Part shown: positions 6,452-19,839 of the stretch, one piece after another
Numbering within the stretch: position 1 is the stretch's first letter
Layout: each line of letters begins with the position of its first letter
Source: a virus
Virus record (IMG/VR): IMGVR_UViG_3300030943_000175
Span: 1-23,741 of that record
Length of the DNA: 23,741 bases
Strand: one strand, 5' to 3'
Position numbers and translations under genes: made by a program
The notes under the pieces: model-generated
Told to the model about the DNA's origin: nothing
What the model saw: only the letters and a program-made list of their open reading frames with translations
Databases searched by the model: none

Positions 6452-7170
6452 AGCATATCTGTCAATAATAAATCACCATCACTTACAGCCTCAATGCTGT
6501 ATTGCATCATATTTGGCTTACCCTGAACGGGTGAAAACTTCAGGCTTTCGGTAACGATCCGGGTGATGCTTCTTTGTGCAAAGTTTTGTCCGGAAACTTC
6601 AATGCTTCCGGCAATTTCGTGAAACAATTGTATTGCTTCCATTTGCTCAGCCACCGTTTGTTGTGTGAGCGGGTTTAGGTTATCCGGAAGGATTATACCG
6701 GAGATGGAAATACTCCAGTCCTCTAAACCGTAAATTTCTTTCACTGTACCAATACCACCTAACGTAGGTGTTTTGGTCACTGTTTTTTGTCTGCCAAATT
6801 CGACCAACGTAGCCAATGGCATCAATAAATCACTCAGCTCAATGTCGATCAGATTTCCCTTGTAATCCCATATTTTATAGGTACCTCCTTTTAGCCAGAA
6901 AGCGCCAAAGCTTTTTTGGCCAAAACGTACCGGAGCATTGTCATAATCAACATCATTATTCAGAACCTGAATATTGGTATAAGGTAAAGCCAAACCATCG
7001 GCTGGCGTTCCTTCCTTCACATCGGTATAGGGAAGGGCTTTATAAGTCCGTTTCAGAAACCACGGCACATAAACCGGCGATTCAACGCCAAACACATCGC
7101 TCAACAGCCTACTTACATAGCCTGTATCGATTGCTGGCCGTTGGTCTAATATGGAAGGTTTATAGGTCAT
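6448..7170 (-). CDS. DUF6046-like tail hub-associated protein
   Basis: 240 residues. I recognise the DUF6046-type pattern of Bacteroidota phages: an N-terminal region with paired aromatic/Pro loops (VYVPWFLKRTY, ALPYTDVKEG, ALPYTNIQVL), a strand pair GTYKIWDYKGNLIDIELSD, then the conserved block VTKTPTLGGIGTVKEIYGLE followed by DWSISISG near residues 130-157. It occupies the place of Mu Gp43 (N) between tape measure and hub, so a role joining tape measure or tube to the hub is likely. Overlaps tape measure stop by 4 bases (7167-7170) and the hub gene by 4 bases. The family number is from memory. Confidence 0.65.
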   Translation of the reverse strand: MTYKPSILDQRPAIDTGYVSRLLSDVFGVESPVYVPWFLKRTYKALPYTDVKEGTPADGLALPYTNIQVLNNDVDYDNAPVRFGQKSFGAFWLKGGTYKIWDYKGNLIDIELSDLLMPLATLVEFGRQKTVTKTPTLGGIGTVKEIYGLEDWSISISGIILPDNLNPLTQQTVAEQMEAIQLFHEIAGSIEVSGQNFAQRSITRIVTESLKFSPVQGKPNMMQYSIEAVSDGDLLLTDML

Positions 7171-9203
7171 GATAATGCGACTAGTCCGTCACTCAGTTTG
7201 TCGTTAATAACTCTTACAACCTTTTCAGCAATGGCCTCAAAATTGTTTTTATCAGCATCACCACTGATAGTAAAGTAGTTCTTGATGTCGATCTTTTGAG
7301 AAATATTCTTTATTCCGGAGGAAGATCCGGAACCCTTTAATTCAGCGTCTGAAGTCTTTTTGCTGGCTGTTTTTAAGTCACCTGGCTTAATTACAGGTGA
7401 CGGTCTTAACAGAGATAAATGTTTATCGACAGGAGACATTTGCCAATCGGCTGCCTGAAATGCAAAATCAGGGTTGCCATTGCTTGCATAAGGCACGAAA
7501 CTGGAAGCATCGGTTTTTGGTCGTTTATCAGGATTTTCCTTGTAAAAGTCCTCCATTCCTTCCTGTTTGCCTTTCCCGAAAGCTTCACCAATCTCACGGC
7601 CATAGTTGGTCGCTGCATCTCCTATTTTTTTAAACCCAGCCGAAAATGAATAGTTAGGATCAAACCAGTTGAGCGGGTTGAAAACACCGCTCAGCAAATC
7701 CAATATACCTGATCCGACTTCTTTAATAAATCCCCAGACGCCAGTAAATACAGTTTTAACAGCATCCCACAAACCCCACAAAAAGCCTCTGAAGGTTGCT
7801 GAAGTATTGTAAAAATAGGTTGCTAAAGCAATCAGTCCGGCAATAATGGCTGCAATCCACCCGATAATTGGGATATTCATAATTGCAACGCCCAGGGCTT
7901 TGGCTGCTACACCCATCATTCCGAATGCACCAGAAATCAACGTACTGGCTCCTGTAACGATCGCTCCAATAACAGGCATAGTTTTCAAGGTATCAAAAAG
8001 CAAAATAACACCTGTACGGGCATTTGCCAGGTTAGCCATGATCATTACTGCGCCTGCCAGTCCGTCAATAAACGGCGTGATCTTCGAAGTCACATCAAAC
8101 ATGCCAATAGCAATATCGGTAAACCATGTTTTCACACGCCCCATGGTTTCGTTATAACCACTCATTACAATGTTTGCCTGTTCAACAGCTGTATTAGTGC
8201 CGGTAATCTTTGTTTTTAGCTGGTCCTGGTAATCACACGACCGGAGCAATATTTCAGCGGCGGCGGCATTCTCAACACCAAAAATCTGTGCCACTACGGT
8301 AGAATCACTCTGTGCTTTCTTTAATTCGCGCAAACGAGTGGTTAATGGCAATGTTTTGTTCGAAACAATGTCGTAGTTAATGCCCAATGCCTCCAACTTT
8401 GCGGCGGCTTCTTTGGGTACAATGTCGATACCTGCCATTTTCGAAAGCACATTTCGCAAAGCGGTACCGGCTTCAGCGCCATATTTACCACCCTGTGCAA
8501 GCGCCTGAATGGCGGCATTGGTCTCAATAAAGCTCACTTTGCTACTTAAAGCCTGCACCCCCGCCACGTTTAAGGCGTTTGTGATCTGAGGAACTTCAGC
8601 AGCGCCTTCTTTGGCACCGGCAGCCATCACGTTCATCATGGTTGTCATCTCTTGTGCTGCCTTCATCGGATCGCTCAGGTCAACTCCAAACTGAAGCATG
8701 GACGTTGTTAAGGCGTCCATCGATGCAACCGCATCGTTTTTCATTGTTTTGCTCAGCGTGGCAATATCGCGGCCCATCAAATCAAGCGCATCCTGATTTT
8801 TTGCAATATCAGGGCCAAAACGCGAAAGAACGCCTTTATAACTTTCCAACATGGCCGAGGCATCACCGCCAAACACTTTGGCGGTGGCCCTGCCCTTTTC
8901 TCCCAACTCATCCAGCGCGTCACCGGAAACCCCGGTCAAGGCTTCTAAATCTTTTAGCTGCGCATTAAATGTCGCGCCTGGAGCATTGAGTTTGTCAAAT
9001 TCATTCGCAATATTCTGAACGGCATCGTTGATCGCGAACAGATCAATTGCCGACATTCCTTTTAGCTTCTTACCGCTTTCTTCAGCTTTATGGCCAATGT
9101 CATCAACCCCTTTGGCTGCTTTTTCGCTTGCATTGATTACATCCTTCATAGGCCCTGTAATCTTATCTACAAGTTCAAGAATCCATTGAGTTGTTGTTGA
9201 CAT
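7167..9203 (-). CDS. Tail tape measure protein
   Basis: 678 residues. Sets tail length and is ejected with DNA. Residues about 70-330 match the phage minor tail/tape measure core (TP901-like: LEALTGVSGDALDELGEKGR, TTSMLQFGVDLSDPMKAAQE, GTALRNVLSKMAG, VVAQIFGVENAAAAEILLRS). Residues about 385-475 hold several hydrophobic segments (VMIMANLAN, IIGWIAAIIAGLIALATYFY) thought to help cross the inner membrane. The C-terminus is polar. Using the usual rule of about 0.15 nm per residue, tail length would be near 100 nm. The first codons overlap, in another frame, the end of the frameshifted chaperone extension (stop at 9175-9177), as in many tailed phages. Confidence 0.93.
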   Translation of the reverse strand: MSTTTQWILELVDKITGPMKDVINASEKAAKGVDDIGHKAEESGKKLKGMSAIDLFAINDAVQNIANEFDKLNAPGATFNAQLKDLEALTGVSGDALDELGEKGRATAKVFGGDASAMLESYKGVLSRFGPDIAKNQDALDLMGRDIATLSKTMKNDAVASMDALTTSMLQFGVDLSDPMKAAQEMTTMMNVMAAGAKEGAAEVPQITNALNVAGVQALSSKVSFIETNAAIQALAQGGKYGAEAGTALRNVLSKMAGIDIVPKEAAAKLEALGINYDIVSNKTLPLTTRLRELKKAQSDSTVVAQIFGVENAAAAEILLRSCDYQDQLKTKITGTNTAVEQANIVMSGYNETMGRVKTWFTDIAIGMFDVTSKITPFIDGLAGAVMIMANLANARTGVILLFDTLKTMPVIGAIVTGASTLISGAFGMMGVAAKALGVAIMNIPIIGWIAAIIAGLIALATYFYNTSATFRGFLWGLWDAVKTVFTGVWGFIKEVGSGILDLLSGVFNPLNWFDPNYSFSAGFKKIGDAATNYGREIGEAFGKGKQEGMEDFYKENPDKRPKTDASSFVPYASNGNPDFAFQAADWQMSPVDKHLSLLRPSPVIKPGDLKTASKKTSDAELKGSGSSSGIKNISQKIDIKNYFTISGDADKNNFEAIAEKVVRVINDKLSDGLVALS

Positions 9204-9411
9204 TGCTTAAAACCTCCGATATTGCGGCTATAAAAGCCATTTTGATGTTTAAATGATTGAGTTTGTTGATGTGCAGGTATTCGGCGTAGAGCTTACACCA
9301 CTTCTTATCATCCAGCGAGTCCGGATCAATGCCATATTCTTTGCGAATAATGGCATCCGCCTCCTGGATAAAGTCATTTTCACCAATTCGATAGCGCTCT
9401 ACGCTTTTGAT
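9175..9411 (-). CDS. Tail chaperone C-terminal extension made by -1 frameshift (GT/Gp41'-like)
   Basis: This frame has no start codon of its own near its beginning and is reached from the chaperone gene by a -1 shift at the slippery site. After the shift, ATC at 9409-9411 begins a 78-residue extension (IKSVERYRIGENDF, then YGIDPDSLDDKKWCKLYAEY and NIKMAFIAAISEVL) that ends at TGA 9175-9177, 29 bases inside the tape measure gene. The full shifted product from 10067 would be about 297 residues. In lambda and Mu the equivalent G-GT proteins load tape measure for tube assembly. The extension's Glu/Lys helical nature and its overlap with the tape measure start match that role. Confidence 0.88.
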   Translation of the reverse strand: MKSVERYRIGENDFIQEADAIIRKEYGIDPDSLDDKKWCKLYAEYLHINKLNHLNIKMAFIAAISEVLSNVNNNSMDS

Positions 9412-10067
9412 AAAAAACTTTGCGCCGGTGATATCATCTGGCGCAATTTCGAAACAACGCCCATGTAAACGATACCATCCTCCAGCGCGTCCATATCACC
9501 GCCAACAACCAGGTTTTTAACCGCCTTTTCTGAAAATTCATCAATCTTTTTAGCTTCAGCAAGTGGAAGCAACATCTTAATTAAACCACGATCCGGACGC
9601 TTAACCAGGTACTGGTATTGCTCACCTTCCTCGATCACTTTTCCCGAATATTTGGCAGATAATTCACCGGCCAACGAAGTATATTCACCTTTATAGCACA
9701 ATTCTTTTAATTGCTCAAGTGGCGTTAAACGATCTTCCAGGCTTAGTTCATTGTTAACGATTGTCGCAAAGTCAATTCCTAACTGTTTAAATAAAATACG
9801 GTCGCTATATGGCATGTTATCAATGTCATAAACTGGCGATTCCACCACCACGGTGATTACCTTTATCCGGCCATACTTCACCTTCAGATCATTGATCACC
9901 TCAGGTGTAATGCTTGCACTAACGATAGCCGGACCAGCCATCAAAAAAACAGCATGATCCTTTAAAAACGCACCGGTGGCCACCGGATCGGCCTGCACAA
10001 CAGCGCCAACAACACTCACACACAATAGGACTAAACAGCCCATCAAAACACGAAAAGAAAATTTCAT
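9399..10067 (-). CDS. Tail assembly chaperone (G/Gp41-like) with signal-peptide-like N-terminus
   Basis: 222 residues. Position between tube and tape measure, plus the slippery site near its end, identify the chaperone. Family-like parts: ITPEVINDLKVKYGRIKVIT at 53-72 and the C-terminal helical half EGEQYQYLVKRPDRGLIKML (147-166) to VKNLVVGGDMDALEDG. Between them is an unfamiliar 70-residue insert (about 78-145). Odd: residues 1-27 look like a secretion signal (KFSFRVLMGCLVLLCVSVVG, cleavage-like VVQA before Asp27) with a second hydrophobic stretch at 36-52. Chaperones are cytoplasmic, so either this N-terminus is a membrane anchor, the true start is internal, or a fusion occurred. The upstream 189 bp carries two hairpins. 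Confidence 0.8.
   Translation of the reverse strand: MKFSFRVLMGCLVLLCVSVVGAVVQADPVATGAFLKDHAVFLMAGPAIVSASITPEVINDLKVKYGRIKVITVVVESPVYDIDNMPYSDRILFKQLGIDFATIVNNELSLEDRLTPLEQLKELCYKGEYTSLAGELSAKYSGKVIEEGEQYQYLVKRPDRGLIKMLLPLAEAKKIDEFSEKAVKNLVVGGDMDALEDGIVYMGVVSKLRQMISPAQSFLSKA
9411..9417 (-). promoter_or_regulatory. -1 frameshift slippery site T TTT TTA
   Basis: On the coding strand the zero frame reads AGT TTT TTA TCA AAA GCG TAG. The heptamer T TTT TTA fits X XXY YYZ exactly and is the same as the HIV-1 gag-pol site. A stop (TAG, 9399-9401) follows 9 bases later. A short stem AGCG/CGCT lies just downstream and could stimulate the shift. Confidence 0.9.
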
Positions 10068-10118
10068 ACTTGTAAATTTTAGATTATTAAAAAATTGAAA
10101 TTTGATTCTTGGAATAAT

Positions 10119-10172
10119 AAAGACCGCCCTATCTCACGTCGATCTCCCATATCGGGGTTTCGGGCGGTCTTT
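10119..10172. terminator. Hairpin between tube and chaperone genes
   Basis: AAAGACCGCCC (10119-10129) pairs perfectly with GGGCGGTCTTT (10162-10172), an 11-bp stem with a 32-base loop that itself holds a CGAT/ATCG pair. On the minus strand the stem is followed by ATTATT, a weak U-tract, so partial termination below the tube gene is plausible. It could instead be a dispersed palindromic element. Confidence 0.65.
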
Positions 10173-10184
10173 TCCTTATCTCTG

Positions 10185-10256: not shown

Positions 10257-10691
10257 TTACACATTCCACCAAATGTGGCTCACAACCAAATCGAACTTGG
10301 TAGCGATTACCTTGTCGTTTTGCTTCACATCAACGCCACGTCCTTTGAATTCGCAATTGTGAATAATGTCCTTTTTCTTAAAGCCATTGTATTCGTATTC
10401 AACCACGATCGGAAAAGGAGCAATGGAGTCAAGGCCCTTGGTTGGAGGTAACGAGTTCTGAAGTGCGTTGACTTCTTCCAGCAATAAGGTAATGGATGCT
10501 TTTGCGGCATAATTGCCTTTACTACGTCCAATCGGATATTGACCGGCGCCATACACGTTTTCTTTCTCAGTCGAATCATCGTACGATAAAGCGGTAATGC
10601 CTTCCACATCGCGACCCAGCATATTTGTGGTGACAGAATTCCATCCTGCCATCTGTCCGAACTTGTTAATTAAACTACCTGCTGTTGCCAT
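10257..10691 (-). CDS. Tail tube protein (gpM/FII/XkdM-like)
   Basis: 144 residues, the usual size of a contractile-tail tube protein. Recognisable stretches: ALSYDDSTEKENVYGAGQYP at about 34-53 (the loop typical of XkdM-type tubes, with a YG.G..P turn), YAAKASITLLLEEVNAL at 61-77, and the final strands DIIHNCEFKGRGVDVKQNDK and KFDLVVSHI, where the 'NC.F' strand and a C-terminal I.W element are common. It follows the sheath gene directly (stop 10696, start 10691), the invariant order of sheath then tube. The long gap after it carries two hairpins, in line with a need for more tube than downstream products. Confidence 0.88.
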   Translation of the reverse strand: MATAGSLINKFGQMAGWNSVTTNMLGRDVEGITALSYDDSTEKENVYGAGQYPIGRSKGNYAAKASITLLLEEVNALQNSLPPTKGLDSIAPFPIVVEYEYNGFKKKDIIHNCEFKGRGVDVKQNDKVIATKFDLVVSHIWWNV

Positions 10692-17293: not shown

Positions 17294-17305
17294 ACACTAT
17301 TTAAA
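17289..17305. repeat. TTTAAA-N5-TTTAAA junction motif, copy 2
   Basis: TTTAAA-CACTA-TTTAAA spans the Gp36-like stop codon (17291-17293) and the portal start (17305-17307). With one more base pair on each side it becomes an 8-bp stem CATTTAAA/TTTAAATG (17287-17307) that includes the portal ATG, so it could damp portal translation. Confidence 0.8.
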
Positions 17306-19839
17306 TGGCTACGAAAATTAAAGAACGCATCGGCAATGCCTTCGAAAAGGCAATACTAAGCCGGGTAAAAAATAACAATTTGTTTGCCGAATATTACAAC
17401 CGGTCCGATGGCAAAAAGCCAACATACAGACGGCTACCTACATTATACGATGCCCAGGAAATAACCAACTGGAAACGTGGAGTAATGGCGGCTACCGATC
17501 CTTACTATCCGCGCCGTGGTATTTTAATGCGGTTCAATCAGTCGCTATTACTCGACAATCACTTAGCAAGTGTTATAGATACCCGAATCCTTCGCGTTCA
17601 GCGTTCATCTTTTAAAATTGTTAACGATAAAGGAGTTGAAAACGAACAGTTAAAAGCATTGCTCGAACGCCCATGGCACGACAATATGATGCGGCTGAGT
17701 CTATTCTCAATTTATCAGGGGCCAACGCTCATCGAAATGTTCGATACCGACGAAAACGGCGAATTGGTACGTGTTAAAGAAATACCCCAAAGCAATTTTA
17801 TTCCGCAAAAAGGGATTATCATCAACGAGGAATATGATGATAACGGAACTAGCTATCTGGATGGAATATACCGTGACTATTACCTTCAGGTTGGCGAAGA
17901 TTGGGACTTAGGTATGCTCAACCAGTTAGCCATGATCGTTCTGGCTAAAAAACTGGGTATGGGTAGTTGGATGAGTTACATCGATAAGTTTGGCGTTCCT
18001 CCTGTTTTTGTAGTTACCGAACGCATGGATACAGGTCGCCGCGATGAGCTTTTCGAAATGCTCGAAAACTTCCGTTCCAATCAGTTCGGAGTTCTTCAGG
18101 GAAAGGAAACAATTACAATTCCAAACAATTATAATTCCGATGCTTACCAGTCCTTTAAATCGCTCATCAACGACGTTTGCAACAAAGAAATAAGTAGACG
18201 GGTATTAGGAGGATCATCAACAACCGACGAAAAAGCTTTTGTTGGCGCTGCTGAAGTTCAGGAACGATTGACACAGGATCGATATGAACAGGACAAACTG
18301 TTCTACAAATACCTGTTCAATACCCAAATCAAAACAAGGCTTGCAAAAATCAGCAGTGTTTATGCTGACTTTTCAACTCACACGCTGGTATGGGATAATC
18401 AGGAAACGCTTGATATCACTGGGTACATTGATGCAGTAGAGAAACTTTCAACCGCATTCGATTTCGACATAGCAGAGGTTCGCACACGCACAGGGCTCCC
18501 AATCATCGGGGCAAAAAGCACTGCTACTTTGCCTCCTGATAATACAGGCGGTCAAAAAAAAAAGCCTAACGCAACCTTAAAAGGTATCGCTCCATACTCC
18601 CAACTCAAACCAGCATTCGTCATTTATGCAGCTACCTGGGATGCTGCCATTGAGCGGCTGGCCAATCAAATCTATTCCGGAGAAGTTAAACCGGCTGATC
18701 TTGATAAAGACCTGGTCCTTAAAAACTATGCGGCTTTCAATAACGAAGCCGCCAAAGCGTATGGCCAAGGTTACTACGATTCAAGCCTGACAAGAAGCTT
18801 CCGGGAAAACTTTTTAAAGTTCGCAGGTGCAAAATCACACGCGCTCATGACTGATATTGCCGCCATCGACTCGCGCGCAGGTATGTCAAAAGAATCGTTC
18901 ATTGCCCAGGCTAAAAGAATCGTTCAAACCCACAACGAAACATGGCTCACCACAGAGCTGCGCTATTGTAGCAGTTCAGTAAGTGCCGCCCAGGACTATG
19001 CCACCTATCTCAACGATGTGGATATTTATCCCTGTCTGAAAAACCGGACAATGGAAGATAGCGAGGTTCGCGACAGCCATGCTTTAAACGATGGGATCGT
19101 GAGGCCGGTCAGCGAGTGGACTTCAATTCCACCTTACGATCAGGGTTGCCGCTGCTGGCTCGAACAAACCACCGACGAACCAACCTTCGGACGAAAATTG
19201 CAAGGCATTAAGTTTCACAACAACCCACACCAGTCAGGAGAAGTATTTACCCAGGAGCAAAGTTATTTTAAGGCTATTCCCGACAATAAAAAAGGCATCA
19301 TTCGTGACAATACGGAGCAAATGAAAGCCTTTATGCCTTACAATCAGACCAAAAAAGCAGGCGAAAACACCGTTTTCGTTAACGATTTTGCCGATTTATC
19401 CGACGTAAAAGCCTCTGTAATTGCTGCCGAAAAGGTTGCCAAAGAGCTTCAGCAAGATGTTTATGTCCGTCCACACATCGAAAATAGCGACAAAACAGCC
19501 ATCAAAAACCCCGAAATTGGGTTAGGAAAGCCCAATAATTTGGCCGATTTAAAGACTTTTGACGCAAATAAGTCAACATCAACACCATCTTTTATCAAGA
19601 ATGCAGTTAAATCAGCAAACAAACAACAATGTTCAGGAATAGTAATCGACCTGTCAAATGCTCCTGAAGGTAATTATCTGGCACTCGCAGCGCGTAAGTT
19701 GCGGGGAGAATTATCCGACAAAGGCAAAGTAAATCACAACATTAAACAGGTAATCATTATACGTGAAGATAAAGTATTGAAGGTATCAAGGCAGCAAATA
19801 AACAGCAGTAAGTTTATGCAGTATTTCAAACTTGACTAA
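17305..19839 (+). CDS. Portal (DUF935) fused to MuF head protein and a C-terminal CdiA-type tRNase-like domain
   Basis: 844 residues in three parts. Residues 1-400: DUF935/Gp29 portal, with MSYIDKFGVPPVFVVTER (223-240) and the FGVLQGKETITIPN stretch (261-274). A linker near 405-425 (Pro/Gly/Lys-rich) joins residues 430-640, a MuF/SPP1 gp7-like minor head domain: SFRENFLKFAG, EVRDSHALNDGIVRPVSEW (587-605) and the typical end YDQGCRCWLE (611-620). Residues 690-844 resemble the CdiA C-terminal tRNase domain: KNPEIGLGKPNNLADLKTF (Glu737, Asp748, Lys750 as possible PD-(D/E)xK residues), KQQCSGIVIDLSNAP and HNIKQVIIIRED. MuF-toxin fusions are known; fusion to the portal too is unusual. No immunity gene follows directly. 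Confidence 0.85.
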   Translation: MATKIKERIGNAFEKAILSRVKNNNLFAEYYNRSDGKKPTYRRLPTLYDAQEITNWKRGVMAATDPYYPRRGILMRFNQSLLLDNHLASVIDTRILRVQRSSFKIVNDKGVENEQLKALLERPWHDNMMRLSLFSIYQGPTLIEMFDTDENGELVRVKEIPQSNFIPQKGIIINEEYDDNGTSYLDGIYRDYYLQVGEDWDLGMLNQLAMIVLAKKLGMGSWMSYIDKFGVPPVFVVTERMDTGRRDELFEMLENFRSNQFGVLQGKETITIPNNYNSDAYQSFKSLINDVCNKEISRRVLGGSSTTDEKAFVGAAEVQERLTQDRYEQDKLFYKYLFNTQIKTRLAKISSVYADFSTHTLVWDNQETLDITGYIDAVEKLSTAFDFDIAEVRTRTGLPIIGAKSTATLPPDNTGGQKKKPNATLKGIAPYSQLKPAFVIYAATWDAAIERLANQIYSGEVKPADLDKDLVLKNYAAFNNEAAKAYGQGYYDSSLTRSFRENFLKFAGAKSHALMTDIAAIDSRAGMSKESFIAQAKRIVQTHNETWLTTELRYCSSSVSAAQDYATYLNDVDIYPCLKNRTMEDSEVRDSHALNDGIVRPVSEWTSIPPYDQGCRCWLEQTTDEPTFGRKLQGIKFHNNPHQSGEVFTQEQSYFKAIPDNKKGIIRDNTEQMKAFMPYNQTKKAGENTVFVNDFADLSDVKASVIAAEKVAKELQQDVYVRPHIENSDKTAIKNPEIGLGKPNNLADLKTFDANKSTSTPSFIKNAVKSANKQQCSGIVIDLSNAPEGNYLALAARKLRGELSDKGKVNHNIKQVIIIREDKVLKVSRQQINSSKFMQYFKLD

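Follow-up and report, generated by a model that had tools for sequence, protein, structure and literature searches.

A probable programmed -1 frameshift behind a phylum-wide chaperone-extension family in phages of Bacteroidota

How would a phage express a conserved reading frame that begins without a start codon and lies wedged between two of its tail genes? The question is raised by a stretch of 23,741 bases from an IMG/VR record (hereafter the window), which encodes a Mu-type portal (PF06074), a terminase, a DUF2586 tail sheath and a DUF6046 protein and, on these assignments and above all that of the sheath, is the DNA of a contractile-tail phage. We take the window to be an integrated prophage because host-like metabolic genes, phosphoketolase and rpiB, lie at its right end. 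Its host is most likely some member of the Bacteroidales, given that relatives occur in Prolixibacteraceae, Carboxylicivirga, Saccharicrinis, Paludibacteraceae and Marinilabilia. The tail tube gene (10257-10691; phrog_4579) and the tape-measure gene (7167..9203, minus strand; PF10145 with E 2e-22, TIGR01760, phrog_28) flank an open reading frame at 9399..10067 on the minus strand, whose 222-residue product resembles a tail assembly chaperone (gpG-like) by its homologues and gene order. This is the place expected of the G/GT-type chaperones, the -1 frameshift tail assembly chaperones reportedly described by Xu, Hendrix and Duda in 2004.

Read base by base, the 3' end of the chaperone frame (9419..9399, minus strand) is AGT TTT TTA TCA AAA GCG TAG, just as the earlier note had given it, with the slippery heptamer T_TTT_TTA at 9411..9417 and the TAG that ends the short product at 9399..9401. 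Reading the codons likewise bears out the claim that a -1 shift opens an extension (gpT-like; 9175..9411, minus strand) of 78 codons, closed by a TGA at 9177-9175. The last 29 bases of this frame (9175..9203) do overlap the start of the tape-measure gene, whose ATG lies at 9203 on the minus strand, and no start codon stands near its beginning, the first in-frame ATG, GTG or TTG being codon 58. The heptamer alone is not remarkable and is little proof of a shift: the window, with its 6508 codons, has many in-phase X_XXY_YYZ motifs, and T_TTT_TTA itself recurs twice in other genes. Three things lift this one above chance: a frame left open after it, its distance of 9 nt from the stop, and the fact that it is conserved.

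Relatives of the extension were collected from viral and genome contigs; a search of plasmid records found none. Conservation of the heptamer among them, which had been proposed as a test of the frameshift reading, was evident throughout: T_TTT_TTA stands in the same phase and exactly 9 nt before the 0-frame stop in all 18 distinct sequences (window included), an open -1 frame lies behind the site in every close relative read, and the extension frame has not decayed. The codon preceding the site varies between AGT, ACT and TCT and always ends in T. From the codon use of the tape-measure genes, the NNT TTT TTA spelling of Ser/Thr-Phe-Leu has a probability of about 0.04 (0.31 x 0.70 x 0.20), and 18 of 18 distinct sequences use it despite these odds, in lineages that are not independent of one another. 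Substitution ratios further show that the extension is under purifying selection, with dN/dS values of 0.05 for the window and L002, 0.15 for the window and L008, 0.13 for L017 and L018, and 0.04 for L034 and L035; most comparisons of closer relatives fall at about 0.04-0.28, and the values are higher in divergent or near-identical pairs. Stop codons number 0 in the extension's own frame and 2-11 in each other frame. Pattern scans used an alignment of six sequences, as one of nine was too diverse for the purpose. In two relatives (L007 and L036) the 0-frame stop comes just 19 nt after the -1 frame opens, and the shift would therefore be confined to a few codons around the heptamer.

What is observed is the layout of the sequence, the fact that relatives keep it and the selection that acts on the extension; from these we infer the ribosomal shift itself, and we are highly confident that the chaperone is joined to the extension by programmed -1 ribosomal frameshifting like that of lambda G/GT. 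The frameshift interpretation of the earlier note is thus supported, in that heptamer, phase, stop distance and downstream protein are conserved together. According to this mechanism, most ribosomes would stop at the TAG (9401-9399) and release the 222-residue chaperone, and a minority, reaching U_UUU_UUA with tRNA-Phe at TTT and tRNA-Leu at TTA, would move one base backwards and continue in the -1 frame to produce the chaperone followed by a 78-residue, mostly helical C-terminal domain. By analogy with known systems, the efficiency of the shift is probably a few per cent.

Alternatively, the extension might be a separate gene, translated by re-initiation after the stop, be it from a start codon of its own or from a non-standard one. 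ATT and other near-start codons are indeed present in its frame, and phage operons often rely on coupled re-initiation; however, the window offers no ATG, GTG or TTG before codon 58, most relatives have none in the conserved head of the extension, and the invariant heptamer and constant -1 relation would be left unexplained. Five genomes (L079-L083) also encode chaperone and extension as one uninterrupted reading frame, about 156 codons long when counted from the ATG, so that the two form a single chain. This natural fusion supports the reading of the extension as a C-terminal domain of the chaperone, not an independent protein, and we regard a separate gene as extremely unlikely. The same fusions could be taken to mean that a single-base change, in a pseudogene or by sequencing error, has split one intact gene in the window. 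That explanation has next to no probability and is refuted by the conservation of the break, the site and both coding parts: the identical break and heptamer recur in many independent assemblies, isolates carry the same -1 break, and purifying selection acts on both sides of it.

A profile built from nine extensions matched 35 of 393 genomes of Marinilabilia's order and 12 of 395 of its phylum (one genome in both), placing extension homologues in 46 of 787 Bacteroidota genomes. The distant loci have an upstream reading frame of about 100-200 codons with its stop at the extension's head, and Pfam tape-measure domains were present in the downstream reading frames of 8 of 10 such loci tested. In all 50 non-redundant loci tallied, from which L070, L073 and L077 were omitted as weak matches without a clear arrangement, the extension lies in the -1 frame of a chaperone-like reading frame, and never in the +1 frame. 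A codon able to re-pair one base back is available in 49 of the 50, nearly always within 18 nt of the stop. The remaining case, L063/L064, has its extension in the -1 frame with no such codon near the stop (GAC AGG CTT TAG). A stop codon also falls inside the homologous part of the extension in L063 and L064, which are possibly decayed prophages.

Tandem slip sites account for 36 of the 50 loci and are varied: T_TTT_TTA in 15, A_AAA_AAC in 7 and A_AAA_AAG in 6 (13 for the latter two together), A_AAA_AAA or A_AAA_AAT in 6, and G_GGA_AAG (L061) and A_AAT_TTA in one each. One locus, L040, carries both T_TTT_TTA and A_AAA_AAA and was counted under the latter, not among the 15. Other loci have a tetramer only, A_AAG in 7 and A_AAC in 3, and T_TTT in a human-gut group. 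In this last group (L014, L042 and L043) the homologous site reads GCT TTT ATC, where T_TTT alone makes a non-canonical -1 site.

The variety of sites bears on the possibility that RNA polymerase, rather than the ribosome, does the slipping, such that mRNAs longer or shorter by one base join the frames. The window's site consists of six consecutive T, and several relatives have A-runs of six or more, as transcriptional slippage would favor, but six T is short for efficient slippage, and the codon phase, for which such a mechanism would have no need, is strictly kept. Because members with short or mixed-base sites, namely G_GGA_AAG in L061 or A_AAG and A_AAC elsewhere, keep the same two-frame layout with no run of more than four identical bases, we consider transcriptional slippage very unlikely.

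How, then, does the window pair compare with systems already known? In lambda, a short chaperone reading frame lies between the tail tube and tape-measure genes and is subject to a -1 shift near its 3' end (PMC5009743, and general knowledge). The products gpG and gpGT are made in a 30:1 ratio; of their two parts, G binds the tape measure and T the tail subunit (PMC5009743). The window pair has the same geometry, with a chaperone between tube and tape measure, a -1 shift and a C-terminal extension that lacks its own start. The earlier note had matched both site and geometry to the lambda and Mu shifts; the geometry holds, whereas the site does not, being the HIV-type U_UUU_UUA and not the G_GGA_AAG of lambda. 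No common sequence family was detected between the two pairs, and a signal-peptide-like N-terminus and a contractile tail (DUF2586) are features of the window. Because of the shared gene order and architecture, the window pair should work like lambda's: the short form would coat the tape measure and the long form would recruit tail tube subunits, roles that we assign by analogy with gpG and gpGT. The heptamer is identical, in identical phase, to the slip site of HIV gag-pol, U_UUU_UUA, a canonical tandem-slip site that is weaker than A_AAA_AAG in E. coli (PMC5009743). Unlike HIV, the window would use bacterial ribosomes, and no conserved downstream structure was found in its family.

The closest parallels are two isolates, Winogradskyella phage Peternella_1 (Winoviridae) and Flavobacterium phage FPSV-S1, in which a homologous extension lies in the -1 frame of the reading frame before the tape measure. 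Their site differs from that of the window, being A_AAA_AAG located 3 nt before the stop, and neither has an annotated CDS over the extension stretch. The extension can thus be named as a gene product missing from both deposited annotations. Judging from these loci, the arrangement is shared by relatives across the Bacteroidota phylum yet overlooked in annotated genomes, and no report of a tail-gene frameshift for this chaperone-extension family was found in the literature searched. The window pair would then belong to an unannotated, phylum-wide family of the well-known G/GT arrangement, which extends this type of frameshifting to phages and prophages of the Bacteroidota; the mechanism itself is not new. 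The same two domains with varied slip sites, along with their frame-fused versions, make up a natural series in which one can ask how a required protein ratio persists when the slip site changes.

We call the 222-residue protein a putative tail chaperone on the strength of its place in the gene order, its homologues among Bacteroidota phages and a weak resemblance in fold. Neither chaperone nor extension matched Pfam or NCBIfam, and no curated tail assembly chaperone family was hit, PHROGs included; the chaperone matches only phrog_19076 (function unknown), with E 2.7e-6 over its C-terminal third. AlphaFold2 models the chaperone as an alpha/beta core with a C-terminal helix (mean pLDDT 79.6) and the extension as two helices (mean pLDDT 76.2). 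PDB sequence searches gave no match for either part, and a PDB fold search with the predicted chaperone gave none. Among the weak matches of the chaperone model in BFVD are Microbacterium phage tail assembly chaperones (E 0.17 and 0.55). The extension, as it consists of two helices, found only unspecific matches among predicted viral structures.

The chaperone of the window begins with a signal-peptide-like segment (9990-10067, minus strand), MKFSFRVLMGCLVLLCVSVVGAVVQA followed by DPV, the cleavage point between them having been guessed by eye. The segment is present in divergent form in members of the window's clade, is under purifying selection, and is absent from L040, Peternella_1 and the gut group. 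Two further ideas, which we consider rather unlikely, are that the chaperone of this clade is membrane-targeted or exported, or else that a lone tetramer (A_AAG, A_AAC or T_TTT) is enough for an efficient shift in many Bacteroidales members. If the former is true, a membrane-targeted chaperone would bring the frameshifted long form, and with it the initiation of the tail, to the membrane; if the latter, the slip site would be simpler than the heptamers that are usually described in tail genes.

A conserved downstream RNA stimulator was looked for by folding and covariation, and none was found; Rfam had no match in the window. Folding of the 90 nt after the site gives strong hairpins, with z down to -4.9, at the DAIIRKEYGID codons about 50 nt downstream of it, which in the window is inside the extension (9290-9360, minus strand). 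The hairpin is kept in many, not all, relatives, its pairing being lost in L005, L021 and L034, and two-sided changes are no commoner in it than in shuffles (114/500). With pairing lost and covariation unsupported, we rejected this hairpin as a frameshift stimulator and regard it as a by-product of the coding sequence.

A second strong hairpin (10110-10180; z -3.5), GACCGCCC...GGGCGGUC and then a U-rich stretch, sits in the 190-base gap between the tube and chaperone genes. Hairpin-like repeats with other stem sequences occupy the same gap in L009, L005, L023 and L036, and these elements are possibly attenuators that lower chaperone expression. TTTAAA-containing motifs (GTTTAAA..N..ATTTAAA) also recur between the tube stop and the chaperone start in L007, L008, L017, L018, L021, L029 and L034, possibly as a regulatory or initiation element.

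Two observations concern neighboring genes. At L090 12109-17667, and also in L079-L083, DUF6046, hub-like and spike-like genes come immediately after the in-frame fusion, in a region that also encodes a protein whose N-terminus is PAAR-like by eye and that lacks a tape measure in the expected place; in several genomes the region has the look of a domesticated tail or an injection-like island. In the window itself, an 844-residue reading frame at 17305-19839 combines the Mu-type portal (PF06074) with a Mu F-like domain (PF04233) and a long C-terminal part without a known family.
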